Assembly: GCA_001777915.1 (NCBI GenBank)
Contig: MFFN01000004.1
Location: forward strand, 551,744-615,743
Direction: 5' to 3'
DNA: 64,000 nucleotides
Origin: Candidatus Edwardsbacteria bacterium RifOxyA12_full_54_48
Lineage (GTDB): Bacteria; Edwardsbacteria; AC1; EtOH8
Shown here: positions 36,538 to 57,365 of the stretch, piece after piece
Position numbering within the stretch: position 1 is the first letter of the stretch
How the letters are laid out: the number at the start of each line of letters is the position of its first letter
The notes under the pieces: generated by a model
Seen by the model: the letters and a program-made list of their open reading frames with translations, nothing else
Databases searched by the model: none
What the model was told of the DNA's origin: nothing
Position numbers and translations under genes: made by a program

Positions 36538-36562
36538 AGGGGCGATCGGCCGATCGCCCCTA
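36538..36562. repeat. REP-like palindrome (copy 1)
   Basis: AGGGGCGATCGG and CCGATCGCCCCTA form a near-perfect hairpin in the 48-base gap between the Rrf2 and ferredoxin genes. Same family as 36793-36820, 57064-57090 and 57116-57138. Confidence 0.82.
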
Positions 36563-36576
36563 CGAAATGGAAAATA

Positions 36577-37281
36577 ATGAAACGCAAGATCGTCCAAATA
36601 GACCAGGATAAATGCAACGGCTGCGGAGAATGCATTCCCAACTGCGCGGAGGGCGCGCTGCAGATAGTGGACGGCAAGGCCCGGCTGGTCAGCGACAAAT
36701 ACTGCGACGGGCTGGGAGCCTGCCTGGGGCATTGCCCCCAGGATGCCATAAAGATAATCGAGCGCGAGGCCGAGGGATATGATGAAAATATTGTAGGGGT
36801 GATTCGTGAATCGCCCCTACGGGATAAAATAAACAATTCCCCGGCCTGCGCCTGCCCCGGATCGCAGATCCGACAGCAAAAGCCGTCCCCGGCAACTTCA
36901 AACGACACAACTGTAAACTCTCAGCTGGCCCACTGGCCCATCCAACTGCACCTGGTGCCGGTCAACGCCCCATTCTTTCAAAATGCCGACCTGCTGATCG
37001 CCGCCTCCTGCCTGCCTTTCTCCTACGGGGATTTCCACCGGGTGATGCTGGCCGGCAAGTCTCTGATCATAGCCTGTCCCAAGCTGGACCGTACCGAGCC
37101 CTATCTGGAAAAGCTGACCGGGATCTTCCGGCAGAACGATATCCGGTCGATCACCGTGGCCATCATGGAGGTGCCCTGCTGCCAGGGCCTGCTGCGGCTG
37201 GTGCGTCAGGCTTTGAAGGATTCCGGCAAACGGATGTCCATCACGGTGGAGACCATCACGGTCAAAGGGGAGAGGCTGTGA
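36577..37281 (+). CDS. Two-cluster 4Fe-4S ferredoxin-domain protein with an in-frame REP insertion
   Basis: A 234-residue protein. Two [4Fe-4S] motifs occupy residues ~10-65: [11 protein letters not shown] and [12 protein letters not shown]. Residues ~72-83 ([13 protein letters not shown]) are encoded by a REP palindrome that keeps the frame open. After a variable linker comes a conserved C-terminal domain ([59 protein letters not shown]) with Cys pairs. Proteins of this type accompany Hcp in anaerobes and may deliver electrons to it. Stop overlaps the next start (ATGA-like). Confidence 0.85.
36793..36820. repeat. REP-like palindrome inside the ferredoxin gene (copy 2)
   Basis: GTAGGGGTGATTC and GAATCGCCCCTAC arms flank a short GT loop, followed by GGGATAAAAT. 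It inserts codons in frame into the linker between the ferredoxin and C-terminal domains. Confidence 0.88.
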
Positions 37282-56777: not shown

Positions 56778-57365
56778 GTGTCGGCCAACGGTAAAAAATA
56801 TCACCGGCGATCCATCCGCCTTCCGGAATACGATTATGGCCAGGAGGGGGCGTATTATGTGACAATCTGCGCCCAGGATCGCAAATGTATTTTCGGGCAA
56901 ATAAAAAACGGCCGGATGCAATTGAACGAATGGGGATCGATGGTACATTCGTTCTGGGAAAGATTGCCGGAACATTATTGCGGGTTGGTCTTGGATTCCT
57001 TTGTCATAATGCCCAATCACGTTCATTTTATAATTATCATTGCCAACGATGTTGTTCCGCGGGGTAGGGGCGAGGTCACCTCGCCCCTAGGGGACGGTGA
57101 TAATAATTTAGTAATGGGCGAGGTGACCTCGCCCCTACGGGATTCGGCAAAACATACATTAGGACAGGTATTGGCATTTTATAAATATCAAACGACAAAG
57201 GCAATTAATCTGGCAAATAGCACGCCAGGGCGTAAAATATGGCAACGAAATTATTTTGAACATATCATCCGCAATGAAAGATCTTATAATGAGATCAGAA
57301 AATATATCATAGAAAATCCCAGATATTGGGCCGCAGACGATGAAAATCCCGAACGAAAATCATAA
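56778..57365 (+). CDS. REP-associated tyrosine transposase (RAYT, IS200/IS605-like) carrying two palindromes in frame
   Basis: A 195-residue protein started at GTG 56778. Family pieces: RRSIRLPEYDYGQEGAYYVTICAQDRKCIFGQI, the HUH motif VIMPNHVHFI, and WQRNYFEHIIRNERSYNEIRKYIIENP. RAYTs act on single-stranded hairpins of REP/BIME elements and are single-copy, domesticated relatives of IS200 transposases. Residues ~94-120 (VVPRGRGEVTSPL, then VMGEVTSPLRDSAK) are encoded by two REP palindromes. The frame remains open through both. Confidence 0.85.
   Translation: MSANGKKYHRRSIRLPEYDYGQEGAYYVTICAQDRKCIFGQIKNGRMQLNEWGSMVHSFWERLPEHYCGLVLDSFVIMPNHVHFIIIIANDVVPRGRGEVTSPLGDGDNNLVMGEVTSPLRDSAKHTLGQVLAFYKYQTTKAINLANSTPGRKIWQRNYFEHIIRNERSYNEIRKYIIENPRYWAADDENPERKS
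57064..57090. repeat. REP-like palindrome inside the RAYT gene (copy 3)
   Basis: TAGGGGCGAGGT and ACCTCGCCCCTA arms form a nearly perfect hairpin in the middle of the transposase gene, after the HUH region. Confidence 0.88.
57116..57138. repeat. REP-like palindrome inside the RAYT gene (copy 4)
   Basis: GGGCGAGGT and ACCTCGCCC arms, followed by CTACGGGAT, as after copy 2. It is separated from copy 3 by 25 bases. Confidence 0.88.

Follow-up and report, generated by a model that had tools for sequence, protein, structure and literature searches.

The window analyzed here is a 64,000-nucleotide stretch of contig MFFN01000004.1 from Candidatus Edwardsbacteria bacterium RifOxyA12_full_54_48. At positions 56778-57365 it contains a gene for a REP-associated tyrosine transposase (RAYT, or TnpAREP) that carries two repetitive extragenic palindromes (REPs) within its own reading frame. 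Why would such an enzyme encode REP DNA inside itself, and is the REP that it carries the one that it recognizes? How RAYTs recognize REPs and how new REP/RAYT pairs arise are current questions in the field, and in the literature searched, structural data on a REP complex come from the Escherichia coli enzyme only. In this work, we found that the type of the in-gene REP covaries with the helix encoded right after it (alphaC) among relatives of the window gene. Taken as a whole, the results are probably best explained by a REP dimer of the enzyme's own type residing in a tolerant loop, with alphaC reading the REP stem and the two being exchanged as a cassette. This explanation builds on what can be read directly from the sequences, namely, the position and frames of the palindromes, their prevalence and turnover, a covariation confined to alphaC, the match between internal and flanking REPs, and the existence of mosaic genes.

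A RAYT gene with an in-frame REP dimer

The gene is an intact open reading frame (ORF) with a GTG start (coordinates of all features are given in Table 1). Its product has the HUH motif and the single predicted catalytic tyrosine of HUH-Y1 nucleases in the right order, and it is classed as a RAYT on these protein features and not on flanking REPs. Residues M78, P79, H81, and H83 are invariant in an alignment of 77 relatives. The AlphaFold model (mean predicted local distance difference test score, pLDDT, of 85) has its elements arranged as in HUH-Y1 proteins, with the HUH motif (residues 79-83), a strand (81-88), a disordered loop (89-127), a helix (128-147), a second strand (155-164), and a helix that includes Tyr176 (167-186). 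The best fold match among solved structures is 4er8, which is the E. coli TnpAREP with its REP hairpin. The sole match in an NCBIfam search was NF047646 (REP-associated tyrosine transposase; E 1.4e-14), with 54 bits against a curated cut-off of 80; scores below this cut-off were also obtained for 8/8 relatives tested, including one with an empty loop (L107). The match to the Pfam family Y1_Tnp is marginal. Residues Q156 and R165 correspond in the alignment to Q95 and R104 in the E. coli enzyme, which contact the GTAG foot (Corneloup et al., 2021; PMC8266576); this paper is our source for the E. coli REP contacts.

The two palindromes are perfect, lie in frame, and are both read as RGEVTSPL. 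They also form a perfect inverted pair of 23 nt whose GTAG feet face outward, and each has the GTAG/CTAC foot under a perfect 9-10 bp G+C-rich stem that defines GTAG-tagged REPs. Their cores are 48 nt (16 codons) apart. A first-pass annotation of this DNA had proposed two REP palindromes inside a RAYT frame that add about 25 codons; both points were confirmed, and the full span (57064-57138) is exactly 75 nt or 25 codons. No further core match with up to three mismatches was found in the window, and in 100 shuffles of the window such matches averaged 0.06 and never reached two. The idea that the palindrome is free of stops did not hold: three of its six frames are open, one frame runs into the TAG within GTAG, and in the copy with a central G a second frame is additionally interrupted by TGA. 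The loop that holds the dimer lies between structural elements and appears flexible, as the annotation had proposed as one option, with low confidence in the model (Table 1) against pLDDT of 95-98 in most of the core.

Prevalence and turnover of palindromes in the loop

We surveyed 125 relatives from the family of the source genome and from many phyla, and 31 further genes were fetched later for an out-of-sample test (about 150 in all). A palindrome is present between the HUH motif and the WQ segment in 96/125 relatives. This region holds 129 palindromes within 24.8 kb, whereas the rest of the genes has 15 within 43.5 kb, and dinucleotide shuffles left only 3-10 genes with a palindrome there. 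Together with the literature, the survey rules out that an in-gene REP is unique to the window gene. The palindromes have many different sequences, and a GTAG or CTAC foot is present in nearly all of them. For left feet, the reading phase is 0 or 1 (GTA G..,.GT AGG) and never 2, in which the TAG would terminate translation. Selection for keeping the palindrome frame open is therefore needless and was rejected, as the genes are simply read in one of the two frames in which the foot gives no TAG stop. In a separate observation, the right foot CTAC was never found in phase 2 (..C TAC, giving PY), with 0/88 overall and 0/37 for right-foot-only copies among 119 genes, although no stop forbids this phase; shared descent or a protein constraint may be the cause.

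Could the segment simply belong to the protein domain and be palindromic by coincidence? The loop is found at the same place in nearly all relatives, and one proline in it is near-invariant. However, this proline is the CCC/CCT codon of the REP end, the loop sequences are otherwise unrelated, palindromes are far above chance, both reading phases occur, and lengths differ by whole REP units. On the survey, the alignment, and the shuffles, we rejected this possibility, which has a probability close to nil. Protein-level conservation of the segment, which the first-pass annotation had named as the mark of an ordinary domain part, was not found because relatives have one palindrome, different ones, or none. 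A caution follows for the "conserved" proline and loop motifs in RAYT proteins, which are REP DNA and not a protein signal. Of the interpretation given in that annotation, RAYT identity and the flexible loop stood. Frame selection fell, as did the notion of an unusual target, since REPs inside the enzyme are also a published hallmark of a RAYT subclass (Quentin et al., 2018; PMC6006769, main text).

The content of the loop varies among relatives. In the closest one (L023; about 85% protein identity and the same sequence downstream), a single double-foot palindrome stands where the window gene has the dimer, and the gene is shorter by 48 nt (16 codons), in frame. Because L045 and L055, which belong to the same clade, have dimers or longer arrays, loss of the dimer center is the likelier direction of this change; the main text of Quentin et al. 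(2018; PMC6006769) proposes this route for the origin of double-foot REPs. Two REP copies were detected in the loop of L045. In L055 (G006 C8:426100-428900), the loop is expanded in frame, with at least three REP copies whose cores are 144 and 72 nt apart and with 125 amino acids from HUH to W. L107 has a full core and an empty loop, with 44 amino acids from HUH to W compared to 71 in the window gene. The in-genome paralogue L020 has a frameshift from a 7-nt deletion inside its palindrome, which is intact in its relative L065, and decaying palindromes were found in several genes (L049 and L020). Since copy number, length, and emptiness vary across L023, L055, L045, L107, and L020, the loop segment is dispensable and unstable REP DNA in a tolerant loop.

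This variation also bears on a possible separate function of the internal REP, which might serve as a DNA site or mRNA hairpin that lets the enzyme find, regulate, or recombine its gene (e.g., autoregulation or a crossover site for cassette exchange). Such a function is compatible with the explanation that we favor, and both can hold. Its occurrence at one site in most members across phyla, its cognate type, and its joint exchange with the helix (see below) are in line with a function, but a detectable palindrome is missing in 27/119 intact genes, the loop of L107 is empty while its core is full, several palindromes are decaying, and plain tolerance accounts for the prevalence if insertion is frequent. 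We regard a dedicated function as an unlikely explanation.

Covariation of REP type with helix alphaC

A match between the palindrome type and the downstream helix was not part of the first-pass annotation. Among the genes surveyed, REP similarity tracks alphaC similarity after correction for the N-terminal part (partial r 0.41; the largest of 999 shuffles was 0.09), and has hardly any link to the C-terminal part (0.06). When REP-encoded residues were masked, a sliding window placed the peak of covariation at residues 125-142, with values near zero further off. In a leave-one-out nearest-neighbor prediction with close relatives excluded (92 genes), alphaC gave the correct REP type in 71% of cases, compared to 28% for the N-terminus, 14% for the C-terminus, and 6% at random. 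Out of sample, the in-gene REP types of the 31 later-fetched genes were predicted correctly for 19 genes from alphaC, six from the N-terminal part, and three from the C-terminal part.

Within alphaC, strongly coupled positions are found at offsets -6, -3, -2, +1, and +2 relative to the conserved lysine, whereas coupling is weak at -5, -4, -1, and 0; the coupled offsets form one face of the helix. Arginine at -3 is associated with a purine at stem base 7 in 48/48 genes and glycine with a pyrimidine in 31/37. KYQ helices, including that of the window gene, pair with GGGCGAGGTC, the KMN helix (e.g., in L025) with GGGCAATTCA, the KTV helix (e.g., in L050) with GGGCGGTTCG, the RSFKSA helix with ..CACGGC, and EIVRAFKTF with C(G/A)GGTTT. 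A gene with a KYQ helix and no internal palindrome (L101) has GGGCGAGGT in its flanks. Three tandem RAYT genes occur at another locus (L177; G212 C2:2299800-2302700), and the two intact ones differ in REP type (CAATTCA vs. CGGGTTC), each having a helix that matches.

The REP and alphaC are neighbors, and they might agree merely through linkage, traveling together by recombination without alphaC reading the REP. Mosaic genes do show that the segment moves as a block. L026 and L050, which share one locus in two genomes from a single genus, have DNA identities of 98-99% from WQ through the downstream flank, 88% just upstream of the gene, and 63% in alphaC; their REPs differ, and each suits its own helix. 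A weaker case is the pair L025 and L055, with 71% in alphaC and 80-87% elsewhere. In these sequence patterns, the REP and the helix have been swapped jointly between related RAYT genes. A ranking of donors of the exchanged alphaC segments by DNA identity was dropped because it produced artefacts from tiny overlaps. Several findings speak against linkage alone, however: coupling is limited to one helix face and weak at the residues in between, no coupling is seen immediately ahead of the loop or in the neighboring C-terminal part, and flanking REPs tend to follow the code in genes without an internal REP. In a small sample of 15 genes without an internal palindrome, the type of the flanking REP was correct in eight cases from alphaC, five from the N-terminus, and one from the C-terminus (6% at random). 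Linkage as the sole cause is thus improbable.

Among 58 genes with flanking REPs, the internal REP corresponds to a flanking one in 36, compared to 2.1 with shuffled partners. Because flanking REPs tend to obey the alphaC code and the REP and helix have been swapped jointly, the internal REP is most likely of the cognate type, i.e., the type of the enzyme's own substrate.

In the explanation favored here, the loop after the HUH strand would carry an outward-facing REP dimer of the very type recognized by the enzyme. The REP may have entered, or may be carried in, a non-conserved in-frame loop at the protein surface, where DNA of this kind is tolerated in two of three frames; the REP would change there through in-frame slippage and unit expansion. 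AlphaC, encoded right after the loop, would read the REP stem, and the conserved residues around WQ...R...Y would be responsible for the invariant GTAG foot and for cleavage. In the loop beside alphaC, REPs of the enzyme's own type would settle and persist, and because target and reader are adjacent, recombination in the loop-alphaC region could swap them as one specificity cassette. We infer from the sequence data that the covariation reflects physical recognition of the REP by alphaC and that REPs reached the loop via the enzyme's own activity. On balance, we also lean toward the more specific proposal that one face of alphaC bears a short code for the REP stem sequence, that the gene carries this stem beside the helix, and that specificity spreads as a REP-plus-helix cassette. 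Each gene would therefore display its own substrate, and the REP target of such an enzyme would be predictable from its sequence. If the in-gene REP labels the substrate of the enzyme, many natural enzyme-substrate pairs could be read from genomes, the recognition code could be spelled out and put to the test with helix swaps, and the evolution of specificity via cassette exchange could be traced.

Several observations weigh against this explanation. Without an internal REP, the lead of alphaC over the N-terminal part is narrow (8 vs. 5 of 15). Related genes are not independent, and the rule linking offset -3 to base 7, the best one found, can be judged on just three well-supported independent contrasts in the tree, of which a mean of 2.6 agree with it and none contradicts it. 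The tree, built from all genes with the loop left out, has poor resolution (20/115 inner branches starred). In addition, the 400 nt on each side of the window gene contain no REP, so the gene lacks the inverted flanking REPs of a REPtron, whereas flanking REPs are present in most relatives. Its REP type is very rare in the genome and does not have the many dispersed copies expected of GTAG REPs: a whole-genome core search (0-2 mismatches) found, beyond the dimer, only one intergenic array on another contig. With no flanking REP and so few genome copies, current activity of the window RAYT is doubtful.

The intergenic array (L008 1480-1610; contig C6 at about 31.97-32.08 kb) contains three REP types (GAGGT, GCGGT, and CACGATG) in about 110 nt. 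Two of these match the two intact RAYTs of the source genome, one being the palindrome type of the second intact RAYT (L019). About ten double-foot palindromes of other types are dispersed in the genome, on contigs C2, C4, C5, and C8 (L072-L082; e.g., GAGGGTTT). None of these types suits either of the intact RAYTs found, suggesting that RAYTs were lost or REPs imported. Another in-frame, in-gene REP in the window, GTAGGGGTGATTCGTGAATCGCCCCTAC at 36793-36820, lies in an ORF that starts with a ferredoxin-like 4Fe-4S domain, and a different REP, GGGCGATCGGCCGATCGCCCCTAC (36538-36564), lies just upstream of this ORF.

Table 1. Features of the RAYT gene and its in-frame REP dimer (window positions).
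Feature	Position	Strand	Basis
RAYT / TnpAREP gene (195 amino acids), HUH-Y1 single-strand DNA nuclease family	56778..57365	+	ORF; NCBIfam NF047646; best solved structure match 4er8
HUH motif PNHVH, residues 79-83	57012..57026	+	alignment of 77 relatives
Loop (residues 89-127) between HUH strand and helix alphaC, holds REP dimer	57042..57158	+	without secondary structure; pLDDT about 51-55 at residues 91-120
REP palindrome 1, GTAG foot left, GGGCGAGGT-C-ACCTCGCCC	57064-57086, stem on to 57089	+	sequence
REP palindrome 2, GGGCGAGGT-G-ACCTCGCCC, CTAC foot right (GTAG on other strand)	57116..57138	+	sequence
Helix alphaC (residues 128-147), proposed REP-stem reader; coupled Q130, A133, F134, Y137, Q138 around conserved K136	57159..57218	+	structure model; covariation
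WQRNYFEHII segment with Q156; R165 just after	57240..57269	+	aligned to E. coli Q95 and R104
Tyr176, predicted catalytic tyrosine	57303..57305	+	near-invariant in 77 relatives; aligned with Tyr of DYIYINP segment of 4er8

Comparison with known systems

According to the main text of Quentin et al. (2018; PMC6006769), TnpAREP subclass 2.4 (RAYT group 4) has a variable insertion between beta3 and alphaC that holds in-frame REPs. The window gene has such an insertion and by this feature is a further member of this already published type. As in that subclass, the in-gene REPs are both double-foot and canonical, and they are spread over many phyla. Nothing essential separates the window gene from the subclass, and the differences lie in the match to alphaC and the cassette exchange, which do not appear in the main text of that paper. 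In a search of openly readable main texts, we found no published account of an alphaC-REP code or of cassette exchange.

The E. coli TnpAREP (group 2; PDB 4ER8; Corneloup et al., 2021; PMC8266576) shares the HUH-Y1 fold and the aligned residues that contact GTAG, and its helix alpha3, which lies between HUH and WQ, binds the REP. The same helix was proposed for REP recognition in group 3 (PMC8266576). By analogy, recognition by alphaC in the group of the window gene would agree with the DNA-binding role of the E. coli helix alpha3. Unlike the window gene, the E. coli gene lacks an in-gene REP loop, the E. coli REPs are imperfect bulged hairpins, and stem recognition by a helix code is not described for this enzyme (PMC8266576).

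GTAG-tagged REPs and dimers inside coding regions, where dimers add 20-30 amino acids, were reported by Di Nocera et al. (2013; PMC3733652), and the window dimer resembles these cases in having GTAG-footed REPs within a coding region. However, those REPs are found in unrelated genes and mostly at differing sites, whereas here they are found in the enzyme itself, at one site, and of the cognate type. The in-gene REP was already known for this RAYT group, and the points not found in the texts searched are the match between alphaC and the REP and the exchange of the two as a cassette.
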